A stretch of DNA of 44,657 nt from Bacteroidaceae bacterium (GTDB lineage: Bacteria > Bacteroidota > Bacteroidia > Bacteroidales > Bacteroidaceae): contig JAGCDQ010000028.1 of NCBI GenBank assembly GCA_017651245.1, forward strand, positions 1 to 44,657, read 5' to 3'. Both the position numbers and the translations under genes were made by a program. This document shows, in pieces, positions 4,186 to 11,629 of this stretch; position 1 is the first letter of the stretch, and every line of letters starts with the position of its first letter. Below the pieces are notes generated by a model that did not search any database, was not told the DNA's origin, and saw only the letters and a program-made list of their open reading frames with translations.

Positions 4186-4235
4186 GGGTTGGAGATTGGA
4201 GGTTTGAGGTTGGAGATTTGAGGTTTGAGATTTAG
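4186..4235 (+). repeat. Heptad repeat array, copy B
   Basis: Seven-base units as at 3249-3292. Apart from one missing heptad, 4201-4235 repeats 3251-3292. The array lies between two convergent genes, and its last bases form the stop codon (4232-4234) of the methyltransferase on the minus strand. Confidence 0.8.
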
Positions 4236-5593
4236 CGTTTGGGGAGTAGTCGTTGGGCGATGAGTTCCACCACATCTACATTGACCGCATTACCTAACGC
4301 TTTGAATTTCTGCACACGAGAAAGTTTGCCATAGTTGAGTTCCTGCATGGATTGGATACGGGCAGCTTCATTATGGGAAATGTAGCGTCCCCATCTGAAG
4401 TCTTCTGGAGTGAAAGGACGCCCCTTCTTGTCAATGGCTCCCTGAGGAGGATAAGGGACAAAAGGCAAGATGGGAGTGGCTGTGGTACACAACGTGATGG
4501 TGGGAACATAATTCATTGAACGGACACGGATACCTGAAGGACGCAACTGGATGACATGATGCTTGAAATCCCAATCCTGATTGGTGCTCCACTCCAACAT
4601 ACGCTGGGTGCGAGGGAACGGCTCAATCTTCTTCAGCCAAGGGTCTATCCAATCCTTGTGACGCTGGTAAAGCTCACGATTCTGACGAATCAGCACCTTC
4701 TTGAATTCTGGATAGGTGTCTTTGTACTTGTTCTTCCGCATATAGAAAGGAAGGCCTGCTATCAACTCCTCACGCGTGTTCCCCTCAAGCACTTTTCCAT
4801 AGGCACCATGTTTTCCACGAAGCCTTTCGATGGGCTGGAAAAAGGGAGGGATGTCCTCAAACTCATAATCAGCACCAAACTCCATCGTGAAGATACAATG
4901 AGAAGGCATGTAGCCATCACGCTTGGTCACATTATAGACAAACTCCTGCCAAGCATCAAAGACTGGATGCAAATCACGACGGACAGGTTGCAGACGGTCA
5001 TTGTCTTCCATCTCCACAATGGTGCGCACATCACTGACCATATCCTTGTCAGGACGCTTAAAATGGAACTTATTCATGCCACTGACACCCTGTTCGTCAC
5101 GCAACATTCCCACAATATAGAAACGGGGACGATGCTGAGGAATGCCAAATTCATGAGGAGAATAGATGTGGCTTCGGATGTCATAACCCAAAGCATCCAA
5201 CTTCTGACGAATCACCTTCCATGTACGCCCTCCATCATGACCAGGCAGGGCTGACACATTCTCCAGAAAAATGTATTTGGGATGATGATAACGCAAGATA
5301 CGGCATATCTCATCGAACAGGTTCCCTCTTCCCAGTTCATCTTCAAACCCCTGTTTCTTCCCCGAGAAAGAGAAAGGCTGGCAAGGGAATCCACCACAAA
5401 GGATATCGTGTTGAGGTATATCTTCTTCCCTGATCTTCGTGATGTCACCCTCTATCGGCACCTTGGGGAAGTTGAGTTTATATAGGTTTTGTAGTTTGGG
5501 CTGTATCTCTGAGGCAAAGACACATTCATGTCCCAAACGAGACAAGGCGAGGTGGAAGCCTCCAAGACCGGCAAATAAATCAATAAATCTCAT
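4232..5593 (-). CDS. DNA (cytosine-5)-methyltransferase, apparently without a partner nuclease
   Basis: The enzyme transfers a methyl group from S-adenosylmethionine to C5 of cytosine in a specific DNA site. It has 453 residues with the C5-methyltransferase motifs in order: motif I FIDLFAGLGGFH at the N-terminus, motif IV GGFPCQPFSFSG with catalytic Cys71, motif VI ENVSAL, motif VIII QHRPRFYIVG, a variable target-recognition region, and motif X ALGNAVNVDVVELI near the C-terminus. The ATG at 5593 is preferred to one 51 bp upstream because motif I begins immediately there and the longer form would overlap the symporter. No restriction endonuclease, Vsr or helicase lies nearby. The target site cannot be read from sequence. 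It sits 16 bp after the symporter, so it is probably cotranscribed. Confidence 0.9.
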   Translation of the reverse strand: MRFIDLFAGLGGFHLALSRLGHECVFASEIQPKLQNLYKLNFPKVPIEGDITKIREEDIPQHDILCGGFPCQPFSFSGKKQGFEDELGRGNLFDEICRILRYHHPKYIFLENVSALPGHDGGRTWKVIRQKLDALGYDIRSHIYSPHEFGIPQHRPRFYIVGMLRDEQGVSGMNKFHFKRPDKDMVSDVRTIVEMEDNDRLQPVRRDLHPVFDAWQEFVYNVTKRDGYMPSHCIFTMEFGADYEFEDIPPFFQPIERLRGKHGAYGKVLEGNTREELIAGLPFYMRKNKYKDTYPEFKKVLIRQNRELYQRHKDWIDPWLKKIEPFPRTQRMLEWSTNQDWDFKHHVIQLRPSGIRVRSMNYVPTITLCTTATPILPFVPYPPQGAIDKKGRPFTPEDFRWGRYISHNEAARIQSMQELNYGKLSRVQKFKALGNAVNVDVVELIAQRLLPKR

Positions 5594-5609
5594 CGTTTCA
5601 ATTTCACAA

Positions 5610-7031
5610 TTATTTCCATTTATGAGAGACCAACCATAGACCAAGGAACGTGAGGAGTCCGTTGAACATCAACATCTCATAACCAAACTTGTAGCCCGTG
5701 AACTCCAGCACCACGTAGTCAATGATGTAGCAGATGATGGGAGATGCAATGGCAATGTATGGGACAAAGGCTGAACGTGGTTGACCTTTCGTGAACATGC
5801 CAAAGGCAAAGAGTCCCAGCAATGGACCATAGGTATAGGACACCAAGGTGTAGATCAAATCCATCACGCTCCCAGAACCAATCGCATTGAAGGCTATCGT
5901 GACCATGAAGAATGCCACCAACATGCCCAGATGAACCCGTTTGCGCGTCTTCTCTTCCTTCTCCCTACCGAGGATGTCTATGCAGAAACTGGTGGTGAGG
6001 GCTGTCAAGGCTGAATCAGCAGAGGAGAAGGCACTGGCAATGACTCCAATGGTGAAGAAGATGAGGCAAGCGGTTCCCAACGTACCATTCAGGACAATGC
6101 CTGACAGCAAATCGTCTCCTTTCTCTGGCAGGGGCATCCCCATCTTCTGGTAGAGAAGCATGAGGAGAATGCCTAAGGCAAGAAAAAGAAAATTGACAGG
6201 AACGAAGAGCACTCCATAGGAACACATGTCTTTCTGCGCTGAACGCAAATCCTTGCAGGTAAGGTTTTTCTGCATCATGTCTTGGTCAAGTCCCGTCATC
6301 ACAATGACAATGAAGACACCTGAAAGGAACTGTTTCCAGAAATTCTGCTTGGAAGCAAAATCACCAAACTCAAACATTCTGGAATGAGTGTCGTTCCAAA
6401 CGGCAGCCATTGCCTCGGAAAAGTTCATATCGAGCAGATCAGCCACCCTCACCAAGATCAGCACCAACGCCAACAAAAGGCAAAGAGTCTGAAGGAAGTC
6501 TGTCCATACCAATGCACGGATTCCACTTCTGCGGGTGTAGAGCCAAATCAGCAACAATGCCATCACGACAATGACAATGTAGGGCACAGAGAAACTGTCT
6601 GCCAAGCACATCTGCAAAATACGGCACACCACATAGAATTTGGCAGCAGCCCCCAACAACTTGCTGAGGATGAAGAAAGAGGCACCTGTGCGGTAGCTGG
6701 TAGGACCAAAGCGATGATCTAAATAAGTGTAGATGGAAGTGAGCCTCATCTTGTAATACAAAGGCAGCAACACAAAAGCCACCACCAAGTATCCAACGAC
6801 AAAACCGAGACACATCTGCATGTAAGTCATGTCGATACTCATCACCCACCCTGGCACTCCAATGAAGGTCAAACCCGAAATACTGGCACCTATCATTCCA
6901 AAAGCCACCAATGGCCAAGGTGATTGACGATTACCATTGAAAAAAGCGGCATTGCCACCTCCCTTACCCACTAAGTGGGAGAGAAGCAGCAATACCACAA
7001 AATATAATATCACTGTGATGAGAACCAACAT
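5610..7031 (-). CDS. Sodium:solute symporter (SSS family)
   Basis: This inner-membrane transporter is 473 residues long with about 13 hydrophobic segments, the size and layout of the SSS (LeuT-fold) family. Family-like stretches include FGMIGASISGLTFIGVPGW near helix 1 and SAFSSADSALTALTTSF in the helix 8 region, where Ser residues form the sodium site in characterised members. The substrate cannot be assigned; sugars, sialic acid, amino acids and proline are all used by the family. It starts 2 bp after the stop of the double sensor kinase, so the two are very probably cotranscribed. This suggests the kinase senses the same or a related solute. Confidence 0.87.
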   Translation of the reverse strand: MLVLITVILYFVVLLLLSHLVGKGGGNAAFFNGNRQSPWPLVAFGMIGASISGLTFIGVPGWVMSIDMTYMQMCLGFVVGYLVVAFVLLPLYYKMRLTSIYTYLDHRFGPTSYRTGASFFILSKLLGAAAKFYVVCRILQMCLADSFSVPYIVIVVMALLLIWLYTRRSGIRALVWTDFLQTLCLLLALVLILVRVADLLDMNFSEAMAAVWNDTHSRMFEFGDFASKQNFWKQFLSGVFIVIVMTGLDQDMMQKNLTCKDLRSAQKDMCSYGVLFVPVNFLFLALGILLMLLYQKMGMPLPEKGDDLLSGIVLNGTLGTACLIFFTIGVIASAFSSADSALTALTTSFCIDILGREKEEKTRKRVHLGMLVAFFMVTIAFNAIGSGSVMDLIYTLVSYTYGPLLGLFAFGMFTKGQPRSAFVPYIAIASPIICYIIDYVVLEFTGYKFGYEMLMFNGLLTFLGLWLVSHKWK

Positions 7032-7033
7032 CC

Positions 7034-10000
7034 TTAACTTTCCGTCGGTTTCGTCAGGTCAGCATCAGAATAAAGCGAGAACTTGGAACCATATCCTGCC
7101 CTGCTATCCACATCCAGCTTCAGCCCCATTCCTTCTGCCAACTTCTTCGCCACATGCAAGCCCAAACCCAAGCCCGGGATGAATCCGTCATCTTTCCAGA
7201 ACAAGCCAAACGCCAACTGTTGTTTTTCCCTTGGGATACCACATCCTGTATCCGCCACGAAGATTTCTACTTGATTAGCATTACCATGATAGTCAACACC
7301 TATCAGGATGATACCACTCTTCGTGAACTTCACGGCATTGCTCATCAACTGACTCAGAATATATTTGACACGAGTTCGGTCATTATTGAGGATGATGCCT
7401 GGCAATAAGTCGAATACGCGCAGTGTCACGCCCTCTGGCATCAAATCTTCCCATTCATGTGCCAGTTCTCTGACTAACTCTGACGCATCAAACTGATTCT
7501 TCACATACTGGATACGTCCACTCTCAATACGCGAGAACATCAGAATGTCCTCAATCATAGCAGCGAGGCTGGTATTGTTCGCCTTGATGATTTTGGCGTA
7601 CTCTGCCATTTCCTCAGGCGTGAAGGAATCAGCAGGCATGCTGACCAAGACATCGCTGAATCCCACCACAGCATTCAATGGGGTACGTATCTCATGGCTA
7701 ATCGTGGTCAAGAAGTCCTCCTTCTGCTTTGCCTCCTCAGCAAGCAACATGGCTTTACGCAAGTTCTCCTCATACCGCTTTGTCTCATCAATGTTAATCA
7801 AGATACCATCCACATTCTTCTTACCCGTCTTGGGGTCGAACATCACGACAAAGCGCAACTGCCACCAGCGATAATTATTCATATGGTCCACATCAGCGTA
7901 AATCTCATAGCTATGTGTTCCCGAAATGTCTATTGCCTGCATGATGAGAGGAATCTCATTCGAGTAGTCAGGATGAACATGTGAAATGATTTCTCTCAGA
8001 TTTGTCTCCGTACGCACTGAATGACTATCGGCTCCATGCAATGCCATCTGTCGCATCTCAGCACGCCTCTTCACACCCTCAACCAGGATTTGAGCCGTCC
8101 TGTTCTTCCAGGATTGCAGCACCACGATGATGGAAACAACGGCTATCAGGAATATGAAGACAATGGTAATCCATGTAGCATAAGTGTAAATTGGCGATAT
8201 CTTCTCTATTGGAGCACCAACAATGATAAAACGGTTTTCATAGTCTTTGTACTCCATCCCCAACCTCTGCATCGCATCATAATCCATGTAGTATTTCTTC
8301 TGGTGCGTCATTCCCACGAAAGATGACAAATCCGCTCCATTCAGAATCTCGGAGGCAACCTTTGCCATATCAGCACCCACGACCTCATAACCAGCGAAAT
8401 ATCCACACAGATATCTGCCTCGTCCATCAGCAAATCCAGCCTTCACAGCCGTAAATTGTGGACGTCCTGTCTTATCAGCGATAGAGGAACTATAGAGGTC
8501 TCTCTTCACTGCCAATGATGGATAGAGCCAAGAATGAACAAATACATTTCTCAGGGTCTGATAACCTTGGTCACGATCCTGAATATCGGCAGAGTTACGT
8601 TCTGGAGATTCTACAGAAAACACCATCACCACCACACTATCCTTCCAAATGGTTGACAAGTGTTCATCCTTGAAGCCATTCACATGAAAGTCAGAGTTAT
8701 CCACGTATGGAGGTCTTGCTATGGCCTGTCTCAGTTCACTTCGAATCATCGAATCCTGTTGGAAATAATCAAGCTCGATTTCCACACAATTCTTGCCTGA
8801 CATTTCAGAAGCCAGATTGATGTTTGTACAGTAATCAATCGGGTCATTGATGACCACCATGTTATTGTGTTTTCTGATGAAATCCCATTTGGGATGGTGC
8901 AAGCCACCCAGAATGATCGGAATGGAGTCAAATTCTGGAACCGGAGCGGTTTGCCACCAATCTATGATATCACAAGCAGCACGGTCACCTTCCGTCATCA
9001 CAATGTCGGGCTTCCACTTCATCCTGATCATTGAATCCTTCAAGGCTATATGCTTCGCACTTGTTGTATTGGTTGGATTTTCCAAATCAAGATATACATG
9101 CATGATGTCTGCATTGATACCATGGTTGCGGAATGTTTGCAAGATATTGTCATTTAATTCCCTATAGCCATCGAACCCCTTATCATAACTATGATATATC
9201 AACACTCTGGCAGGCCTCTCCTGTCTGTCATTATTGATTGTGCAAGAGGATGGCAACAAGAGTCCAACACCGATGGTCACAATCATGAGCAAGCACTCAA
9301 CCATTTTGGTCAAACGGAAGAAGAACTTACTACCCTGACCTACTTCACTTTCCACACCAATCGTACCATTCTGCTTCTCCATGATGGTCTTACTGATGTT
9401 CAGACCAAGACCTGTACCCTTATCTGTTTCGTTCACCTTGATGTAGCGTTCGAACAACTGTGCCTGCTTTTCTGGTGCAACACCAATACCCGTATCTCGC
9501 ACATACACTTCCACCACATTGGGATCGTCTTGCAGATAAGTCCATCCCAACGTGACACTTCCCTCTGTCGTGAATTTGAATGCATTGCTCAAGAAGTTGT
9601 TCACCACCTGCTTTGTACGTGTAGCATCGATATTGACCATCGCATCAGGTTCTGCAGTTTCCAACTTGAACTCAAGATGGGTAGGAGCAATGATATAGTT
9701 GGTCTTGTAACATTCATCCACCAGTTTCTGGATAGATACAGGCTTTTGGATGATTTCGAGGTCACCAGTCTCAATCTGTGCCTTCTTCATCACACTATCT
9801 ATCATGTTTAGAATCATGTCTGTGTTCTGGTGAATCACTTCGCCATACATTTCACGTTCACCCTCCTCGAAAGTCATGCCAGGAGTTGTCAACATGGATG
9901 AGAAACCCGTCACAGCACCCAGTGGAGTACGGAGGTCGTGGCTGATGTTTGCCAAGAAATTCTCCTTCAATGCCACCTGACTCGCCAAGATTTGTGCCTG

Positions 10001-11629
10001 TTCCAACTTCTCCTCCGTTTCCTTCTTCTGGTCGATATTCAACAGCAATCCGTAAAGCTCATTCTTCTTGGCAGAGTCATCCGTTGCTGTGTACATCGCC
10101 TCAGCCCAATACCACGATTGTCCTCCATCTGGTGTCAGATGCAGACGGACAGTCTTCCTTCCTCGCTGATTTCGGAAGTTCTTCAAGAACTCAAACGAAG
10201 CCTTACTATCTTCATGCACCATGGTCTCAACCTCATCAAGGAGCAACCTCTGCGGCACATGGAAATAATCGCAGAACTGTTCGCCTAATGTAAAAACACC
10301 ATCCTTAAGGAGCCAGAATGTATCCTTCGAATCAGAGAACATCAGTTCATGCACTTTTTCCTCATATTGCAACTCATCCACCAAACTCATCTGTCCCTTC
10401 CATCTCCAACGCAACATGAAATAGACAATCACATAGATGACAATACCAATCAACAGAATGAAGAAACCCACCTCCAATGCAAATTGAAGAGGATTTTCCA
10501 GATAGAAAGGTGCATTGACAATATGGAAATCTTCACTGTAGTTGCTATACGACATTTTTGGGAACATCTTCTGCATGGCATTCCAATCCAAATAGTAAGC
10601 ACTCGCATGAAGACTGATCGGCAAAGATTTCGGCTGTTCACCTTTCAAGATACGCACGGCATATGACACTTGGTCTTCCACCTGTGTTTCCGTACTGGTG
10701 AAATATCCACCCAAGAAACGAACATTTTTAGGGTCATTGAACTGCTCACGCACACATGTGAACTGAGGAAGTTCTGTATGGTCAATGATTGAATTACCGA
10801 CAATACCACCAGTCCTCACCTGTAATTGCCACATATTCTTTGCATTCTGATAGAAGAAGCCTGTCGTTGCCTTACCAATGGAATCTGACTCTCCCTCAGC
10901 ACAATTTCTATAGGGGAAAGCACAAGAAATAAAATTCACCACAGCACGACCAGGATATTTCTTCTTTAGATATGCCTCATCCAGATTCTTCTCCTTGAAA
11001 TCGGAATTATTGACGAATCTTGTGGAATCACGAAGTTCTTCCTCAAACTGAGCACGCATTCTCATGTCAATGTCTCGATAATCCAACTCTATCGTGATAC
11101 ACTGCGTCTTCACCAATTTCATCATCAATTCAATATTGCGTGCCAAATCCACCTTTGCCTCAAAACCTGTCATTTTCGGGAATCGGTAAAGGGAGTCACG
11201 CAACAAGGAATGTACACCAGAGAAGACTATAGGCGTGTTGGTAAGAAGCGAATCGATGTCTGGATGCAAGAAGAGCCAATCCACAATCCCGTCATCATTC
11301 AACAAGATGACCTCGGGTTTCCACTCCTTTATCTGCGCAGAATACTTAGGCCAATCAACATTCGTGAAGATGTCACTAGGACGATGTGGCATGTTGGTGT
11401 AGATGTGATGAATCTCCACAGGCATATCATGGCTCTTGAAAGCATTTTCCATACATTTGGAAAAGAGTTCCTTCTCTTCCCCAACACTATCCCACGAGTG
11501 TATAACCACTACGCTATGACGAGGTCCATCTGACCCTGCGATATTGCGCACCTTACTACATGAACCCAACAACGTGATGATGACGACAAACAGTAAAGGC
11601 AATATTCTTGACATATTATTATTTTTCAT
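7034..11629 (-). CDS. Tandem double sensor histidine kinase (two complete kinases in one polypeptide)
   Basis: The 1531-residue product contains two copies of the same plan. Half 1 (1-775) has a lipoprotein-like signal ending LLGSC, a periplasmic domain resembling ABC-type solute-binding sensors, a membrane helix (FFILLIGIVIYVIVYF), a PAS-like region, a HisKA box with His564 (SHDLRTP) and an ATPase domain (DTGIG, GTGLGL). Half 2 (776-1531) starts at Met776 with a second hydrophobic signal ending LLPSSC. It then repeats the sensor, a membrane helix (ITIVFIFLIAVVSIIVVL), PAS, HisKA with His1312 (SHEIRTP) and ATPase (DTGCG, GLGLGL). The sensors share IELDY, NSDF and YYxD(W/Y)(N/D)AMQ. No receiver or output domain is present, and no response regulator is in the window. 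I chose the ATG at 11629 because it begins a lipoprotein signal after a good promoter; an upstream ATG at 11737 would add an AT-rich tail containing that promoter. Confidence 0.88.
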   Translation of the reverse strand: MKNNNMSRILPLLFVVIITLLGSCSKVRNIAGSDGPRHSVVVIHSWDSVGEEKELFSKCMENAFKSHDMPVEIHHIYTNMPHRPSDIFTNVDWPKYSAQIKEWKPEVILLNDDGIVDWLFLHPDIDSLLTNTPIVFSGVHSLLRDSLYRFPKMTGFEAKVDLARNIELMMKLVKTQCITIELDYRDIDMRMRAQFEEELRDSTRFVNNSDFKEKNLDEAYLKKKYPGRAVVNFISCAFPYRNCAEGESDSIGKATTGFFYQNAKNMWQLQVRTGGIVGNSIIDHTELPQFTCVREQFNDPKNVRFLGGYFTSTETQVEDQVSYAVRILKGEQPKSLPISLHASAYYLDWNAMQKMFPKMSYSNYSEDFHIVNAPFYLENPLQFALEVGFFILLIGIVIYVIVYFMLRWRWKGQMSLVDELQYEEKVHELMFSDSKDTFWLLKDGVFTLGEQFCDYFHVPQRLLLDEVETMVHEDSKASFEFLKNFRNQRGRKTVRLHLTPDGGQSWYWAEAMYTATDDSAKKNELYGLLLNIDQKKETEEKLEQAQILASQVALKENFLANISHDLRTPLGAVTGFSSMLTTPGMTFEEGEREMYGEVIHQNTDMILNMIDSVMKKAQIETGDLEIIQKPVSIQKLVDECYKTNYIIAPTHLEFKLETAEPDAMVNIDATRTKQVVNNFLSNAFKFTTEGSVTLGWTYLQDDPNVVEVYVRDTGIGVAPEKQAQLFERYIKVNETDKGTGLGLNISKTIMEKQNGTIGVESEVGQGSKFFFRLTKMVECLLMIVTIGVGLLLPSSCTINNDRQERPARVLIYHSYDKGFDGYRELNDNILQTFRNHGINADIMHVYLDLENPTNTTSAKHIALKDSMIRMKWKPDIVMTEGDRAACDIIDWWQTAPVPEFDSIPIILGGLHHPKWDFIRKHNNMVVINDPIDYCTNINLASEMSGKNCVEIELDYFQQDSMIRSELRQAIARPPYVDNSDFHVNGFKDEHLSTIWKDSVVVMVFSVESPERNSADIQDRDQGYQTLRNVFVHSWLYPSLAVKRDLYSSSIADKTGRPQFTAVKAGFADGRGRYLCGYFAGYEVVGADMAKVASEILNGADLSSFVGMTHQKKYYMDYDAMQRLGMEYKDYENRFIIVGAPIEKISPIYTYATWITIVFIFLIAVVSIIVVLQSWKNRTAQILVEGVKRRAEMRQMALHGADSHSVRTETNLREIISHVHPDYSNEIPLIMQAIDISGTHSYEIYADVDHMNNYRWWQLRFVVMFDPKTGKKNVDGILINIDETKRYEENLRKAMLLAEEAKQKEDFLTTISHEIRTPLNAVVGFSDVLVSMPADSFTPEEMAEYAKIIKANNTSLAAMIEDILMFSRIESGRIQYVKNQFDASELVRELAHEWEDLMPEGVTLRVFDLLPGIILNNDRTRVKYILSQLMSNAVKFTKSGIILIGVDYHGNANQVEIFVADTGCGIPREKQQLAFGLFWKDDGFIPGLGLGLHVAKKLAEGMGLKLDVDSRAGYGSKFSLYSDADLTKPTES

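Follow-up and report, generated by a model that had tools for sequence, protein, structure and literature searches.

Homodimers are the rule for histidine kinases. Among the described systems that come closest to the gene considered here, RetS and GacS exemplify heteromeric or pseudokinase histidine kinases, TodS carries a receiver between its two modules, and in the FbcH cytochrome b/c1 precursor of Bradyrhizobium an internal signal, which signal peptidase I cuts, connects two membrane proteins. A title cited by PMC4321377 ascribes to TodS two autokinase domains within a single chain, and PMC8534201 calls the protein cytoplasmic and gives it two PAS domains. The present study deals with a double sensor kinase gene found in the 44,657-nucleotide contig JAGCDQ010000028.1 of a Bacteroidaceae bacterium (assembly GCA_017651245.1), analysed at its full length and referred to as the window. 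The gene is an uninterrupted minus-strand frame of 1531 codons (11629..7034; protein P0001, 1531 aa) in which two sensor kinase units, A and B, are connected by a hydrophobic segment of lipoprotein-signal type.

Based on the collective evidence from sequence comparison, with a probability that we put at about 0.55, the gene is understood as encoding, in one polypeptide, a pair of sensor histidine kinases that are paralogous and membrane-anchored, evolved together and would act as a heteromer. In the mechanism proposed, A and B would constitute a heteromeric A:B kinase in which the ATPase of one partner can serve the phosphoacceptor histidine of the other; the two sensors would feed one shared output, and fusion would fix the 1:1 stoichiometry. 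The fused protein would represent a covalent A:B receptor kinase with four hydrophobic segments (the first possibly cleaved) and two intact cores, the internal segment inserting into the membrane as a helix and bringing the chain back to the periplasm. That the two sensors compare two ligands is a guess.

The fused frame and its conservation

The single frame reported in the preliminary description is indeed open on the minus strand, and reading of the same interval on the plus strand meets many stops. Pfam profiles identify two HATPase_c (whole-protein E 2.8e-41) and two HisKA domains (E 1.5e-30), and the hydropathy peaks, which include aa 9-27, 387-405, 780-798 and 1153-1171, make the topology described earlier plausible, with signal, sensor, helix and kinase following one another twice. 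The PAS domain placed in both repeats is the putative part of that layout: neither linker gave a PAS match in Pfam at a limit of E 5 (program filters drop most matches above 0.1), and NCBIfam MASE3_PAS_HK aligns to aa 450-775 with a score far below its cut-off. Regarding the sensors, the whole protein searched against Pfam at E 0.1 matched no sensor family, ABC_sub_bind (PF04392) included. At E up to 1, ABC_sub_bind weakly matched 4 of 26 family sensors, the best being that of a Bacteroides-type single kinase (E 1.4e-5; 24.9 bits against a gathering cut-off of 25.9), and a PDB profile search for the sensor fold gave nothing convincing (best E 0.074).

The window genus, termed g1, was represented by 45 genomes. 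A near full-length fused frame without stop is present in 35 of them, including the window's own, and the other 34 copies, in metagenome-assembled genomes (MAGs) from many projects, range from 89% to 45% identity to the window protein. Alignments comprise 34 fused g1 copies, the thirty-fifth (G014) being left out. In both units of all aligned copies, the phosphoacceptor His and six key ATPase positions (N, G1 and G2 included) are intact; the two modules have the HisKA and HATPase_c sequence features of a HisKA-type sensor histidine kinase, and kinase activity is predicted for them. Named records (L078-L110) add names rather than copies, since each of the 33 has a match of at least 97% identity among the copies counted above, and the carriers so named include Candidatus Minthosoma equi and caballi together with numerous MAGs from the rumen and gut, produced by different projects. 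Across the order (393 genomes), a search at E 1e-100 matched only the window's own genome, a limit that would miss single kinases and sensorless forms.

An artefact of assembly or sequencing might be suspected from the draft state of the source (77 contigs), but the agreement of 35 genomes, MAGs of many projects among them, speaks against it and leaves it a negligible probability. A recent fusion limited to one assembly, which the preliminary description had considered and had named as the outcome that would speak against its reading, is contradicted by the same distribution, by the span of identities within it and by dN below dS at the junction in the 7 of 10 close pairs with a usable value.

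Paired relatives and uneven catalytic loss

Within a family sample of 399 genomes, 58 matched at E 1e-60, comprising 29 of the window genus, 21 of the sister genera g2 (parts g2a and g2b), g21 and g24, and 8 of genera with a single gene. The sister genera g24 (home of Candidatus Colenecus, L122), g21 and g2 encode A and B as adjacent separate genes, arranged A then B on one strand in all 27 pairs of the 21 sister-genus loci, with B's ATG overlapping A's stop by 4 nt in nine pairs. The homologue search that had been proposed for telling one fused gene from two thus returned both arrangements, fused in g1 and adjacent in its sisters. The joining of two adjacent duplicated genes, as envisaged earlier, is borne out, and only its supposed recency is not, for the duplication is old and the two units of the window protein share ~27% identity.

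A quick midpoint-rooted tree of 81 units places A apart from B, with the single-gene relatives on the A side and with A and B branching alike where resolved. A second tree, with bootstraps and built from 61 cytoplasmic parts (A', introduced below, left out), agrees with the A/B split and contains two supported clades, and the distances within A correlate with those within B (r 0.990 for all 63 pairs taken together and 0.982 inside the window genus). Judged from these trees, A and B represent separate paralogue clades of old origin, and the A-B pair is a unit of inheritance that in two genera was also duplicated as a unit. The duplicate, A'-B', lies upstream of A-B in g21 and part of g2, its A' being without ATPase domain. 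Four-unit arrays A'-B'-A-B were observed at L043, L044, L045, L046, L047, L051 and L052, in which A' is without ATPase domain and other members are without His. An extra A-B pair, cut by the locus end, occurs on contig C25 of G096 (L235), a genome already having A'-B' and A-B. The genome-search frames of 1422-1426 aa had made g21 A'-B' appear fused; this was rejected, the frame listing giving two frames.

Catalytic losses were counted over 63 pairs (126 paired genes) at 56 loci, with 7 single-gene relatives for comparison. Outside this census stand G014, a pair split across contigs (L065/L066), more separate pairs (L116, L117, L119), named copies of g1 rows (L098, L104, L105, L107), unparsed loci (L112-L115, L118, L120-L123), L124 and L235. 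The phosphoacceptor His is lost in 15 and the ATPase domain or its residues in 8 of the 126 paired genes, compared to 0/7 single-gene relatives with any catalytic loss, and every one of the 56 loci has at least one complete kinase unit. The losses are distributed unevenly. In g21, His is lost in A at 4/5 loci and in B at 5/5; A' keeps its His (5/5) but is without ATPase domain, and B' is complete (5/5). In g2a, B is without His (2/2) and A' has lost both His and ATPase (2/2), with A and B' complete; in g2b, A is complete (3/3) and B is without His in two of three, one of these also without ATPase residues. Both units are intact at the catalytic positions tested in all pairs of g1 (34/34) and g24 (12/12). 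Such uneven degeneration of partners looks as expected of heteromeric kinases and favours that interpretation, of which the window protein would be the covalent, intact version.

The chain might, alternatively, simply carry two ordinary homodimers on one string, A pairing with A and B with B across two chains, in which case fusion would fix only co-expression or proximity. This agrees with the general rule of homodimerization and with the intact cores throughout g1 and g24, but it leaves us with B genes lacking His (9/10 in g21, g2a and g2b taken together, B' uncounted) and with A' genes lacking the ATPase domain (7/7), none of which could autophosphorylate as homodimers and all of which are yet kept beside a partner. 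We consider the arrangement rather unlikely. The heteromeric reading also accommodates the built-in heterodimer of the preliminary description, for which similar clade branching, repeated fusion and the uneven catalytic loss in relatives provide evidence of an indirect, evolutionary kind.

Fusion was found three more times, as A'-B' of 1372 aa with A' lacking the ATPase (L043), as A-B of 1503 aa with degenerate B (L076; L111 is the same contig) and as A-B of 825 aa in a Prevotella MAG (L124) that has lost the periplasmic sensors. In L124, a clear phosphoacceptor His is present in A only (by eye); its A part groups with A of g2 and g21, not g1, and its B part forms a long unplaced branch. The fusion may accordingly have arisen in up to four lineages, the alternative being three fusions plus a later split. 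The entire kinase array of L124 (6087-10363) consists of an A'-like gene of 255 aa, a B'-like gene of 331 aa and the fused A-B, with sensors lost, and no second sensorless fusion was found among the 399 family genomes (L124 protein as query, E 1e-80).

The junction and its signal-type segment

Residues 760-790 are free of insertions and deletions in the aligned copies, and beyond 790 L036 is one and L039 three residues shorter, at 791-793. S795 and C796 show zero changes on the tree, the sole such columns in 776-800, against an average of 7.5 changes for columns 776-796; C24 of the first signal is likewise unchanged. Of 10 close pairs, seven give a ratio of nonsynonymous to synonymous substitution (dN/dS) of 0.10-0.31 for residues 765-805; in the other three it is undefined or zero. 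The fused frame is thus conserved and under selection, and given the ungapped residues, the invariant S795-C796 and dN below dS, the A-B join is most likely translated and maintained. It is also tight, with the unit A ATPase ending 2-3 residues ahead of the internal hydrophobic segment in all aligned copies.

The preliminary description had called the internal segment a lipoprotein-like signal ending LLPSSC. Its Ser-Cys is invariant (34/34), but the motif is not a canonical lipobox, position -3 being Pro in 19/34 copies, Phe in five, Leu in one and Val or Ile in none. The invariant Ser-Cys suggests that the segment still passes for a lipoprotein signal, if only in lipid attachment; with the noncanonical motif, lipidation of Cys796, or cleavage there, would be no more than a possibility. 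If lipidation were followed by cleavage before Cys796 through lipoprotein signal peptidase, the gene would encode a polyprotein yielding two kinases in equal amounts. The immobility of S795 and C796 within otherwise changing columns is consistent with this, as are the internal hydrophobic stretches of all three other fusions, which also end in Cys (SFCGC, GLVSC, LTTSC), and the lipoprotein-type signal at the start of most separate B genes (by eye; L050 does not have it). Position -3 argues to the contrary, as does L124, which retains the segment though its B sensor is nearly gone. A literature search over open-access papers (most subscription papers lay outside it) found nothing on point for fused membrane sensor kinase pairs, heterodimers or internal lipoprotein signals, and the last of these counts against the polyprotein as well. 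Cleavage into two kinases is thus regarded as unlikely.

Additional production of unit B alone, from an internal start near Met776 (codon at 9304-9302), was rejected as highly improbable. Met776 lies about where separate B genes begin, but it is present in just 11/34 copies; the other 23 have Tyr, Ile, Val or Phe, a few of them with Met at another position close by. The window interval 9200-9500 gave no sigma-70-type promoter match (such scans miss other promoter types), and the internal ATG that had been put forward for checking at 9302-9304 is therefore unsupported as a start.

It is conceivable, if doubtful on present sequence data, that the full combination applies, i.e., a covalently enforced heterodimeric receptor kinase, or a receptor polyprotein, with a working internal lipoprotein signal that lipid-anchors the second receptor mid-chain, in a family of A/B pairs dividing phosphoacceptor and ATPase roles.

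Output, neighbourhood and known systems

Absence of a response regulator nearby, as noted earlier, was confirmed for the window, where a receiver profile run against frames of at least 90 aa found no receiver domain. The window's genome (G000) has 12 receiver domains, and a stand-alone one (contig C42, 16402-16836) is the candidate to which output would pass, the weak step of the mechanism. Such a stand-alone receiver (E <1e-50, a limit that leaves out weaker matches in two genomes, G003 and G042) occurs in 35/35 genus genomes with the fusion compared to 4/10 without (Fisher p 2.6e-5, uncorrected for relatedness or completeness). In g24, receivers adjoin the A-B pair at 11/12 loci, the exception being L054, where the contig ends, and in all five g24 genomes searched the best match to the stand-alone receiver is one adjoining the A-B pair. 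The closest receiver has 69-71% identity in the five g2/g21 genomes having one.

Several observations weigh against the heteromeric reading. The ten genus genomes without a near full-length copy, among them G023 (estimated 99% complete), indicate that the gene is dispensable. With both partners intact throughout g1 and g24, nothing forces a heteromer there; at four of the five g21 loci, where neither A nor B has His, A:B alone could not work, A' or B' would be needed, and cooperation would have to extend beyond two subunits. The similar branching and the distance correlation partly reflect shared species history, and the branching of the g2b group has weak support, on the B side. The fusions of L043, L076 and L124 come from a single MAG each, and those of g1 and L124 could go back to a single event with a split afterwards. 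At the junction, dN/dS exceeds that of the kinase cores, marking the junction as less constrained, and the short tether to the membrane segment may hinder the unit A ATPase. Regarding output, the closest receiver lies away from the kinase array in g1, g2 and g21 and near other kinases in G001, G025, G096 and G145, so that the stand-alone receiver is a lead only as cognate partner of the fused kinase.

Table 1. Features of the fused kinase and the adjacent gene, in window coordinates
Feature	Position	Strand	Residues	Basis or remark
Fused double sensor kinase	7034..11629	minus	unit A aa 1-775, unit B aa 776-1531	open frame and Pfam
Unit A lipoprotein-type signal, ends LLGSC	11558..11629	minus	aa 1-24	C24 kept in 34/34
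Unit A periplasmic sensor, possibly a divergent ABC_sub_bind-like domain	10475..11542	minus	~aa 30-385	alignment
Unit A membrane helix	10415..10471	minus	aa 387-405	hydropathy
Unit A phosphoacceptor His564 (NISHDLRTPL)	9938..9940	minus	His564	His in 34/34
Unit A HATPase_c	9311..9628	minus	aa 668-773	Pfam; N682, D712, G714, G716, G740, G742 in 34/34
Internal hydrophobic signal-type segment at the A-B joint, ends S795-C796	9242..9304	minus	aa 776-796	S795, C796 invariant 34/34
Unit B periplasmic sensor	8195..9232	minus	~aa 800-1145	alignment
Unit B membrane helix	8117..8173	minus	aa 1153-1171	hydropathy
Unit B HisKA	7517..7726	minus	aa 1302-1371	Pfam; phosphoacceptor His1312 at 7694-7696, His in 34/34
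Unit B HATPase_c	7073..7393	minus	~aa 1413-1519	Pfam; key residues in 34/34
Sodium:solute symporter gene	5610..7031	minus		Pfam SSF; ATG 2 nt after kinase stop

In the window, the symporter and a Dcm-type cytosine methyltransferase (4232-7031, minus strand) are closely packed with the kinase on one strand, an arrangement of the core of the genus. The symporter is linked to the kinase at 26 of the 33 named genus loci (L078-L110), and as an obligatory partner it was rejected on that count. Neither gene was matched in the available flanks of L098, L100, L102, L104, L105 and L107, and in L095 the methyltransferase is present with the symporter not matched. A separate A-B pair of g24 (L057, 9471-13246) has as neighbours a small membrane protein and a TPR-like protein, the latter below the Pfam cut-off, together with an AraC-type regulator and two stand-alone receivers. 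At L157 (1456-3335) the stand-alone receiver adjoins a gene whose product has a TackOD1 domain (the name comes from Thaumarchaeota), and a similar gene, recognized by eye from its start sequence, is at or near the receiver at 6/8 genus loci.

The study of mixed sensor-kinase dimers, and of how two inputs are integrated in them, is hampered by the prior need to identify the partners. In the present case evolution seems to have singled them out, binding one to the other in up to four lineages, and a gut and rumen genus fusing kinases that neighbour each other in sister genera offers a natural test case for mixed sensor pairs. Sister lineages with His or ATPase removed from one partner constitute natural mutants to test, and the invariant internal Ser-Cys raises the question of whether the lipoprotein machinery is able to work at a site inside a protein chain.

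Compared to known systems, the fused kinase resembles the TodS/TmoS type of Pseudomonas in having two kinase modules per chain. It differs in that each module has a periplasmic sensor and a membrane helix of its own, whereas TodS is called cytoplasmic, and in that the modules are joined by a lipoprotein-type signal segment; the Pfam scan found no Response_reg domain in it, and the receiver that characterizes the TodS type, set between two cytoplasmic modules, has no counterpart. Bacteroides-type single sensor kinases (L067-L073) follow the sensor-helix-linker-kinase order of A and B, but have one unit per locus in 12-kb stretches, with His and ATPase residues intact in 7/7. With FbcH, the fused kinase shares the joining of two membrane proteins via an internal signal sequence, from which it is set apart by the lipoprotein-like nature of its internal segment. 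Analogy to RetS/GacS and to DivL lies in kinases that have lost catalytic function and regulate other kinases or form pairs with them; unlike these, the A and B partners are adjacent, co-inherited paralogues that are sometimes fused.

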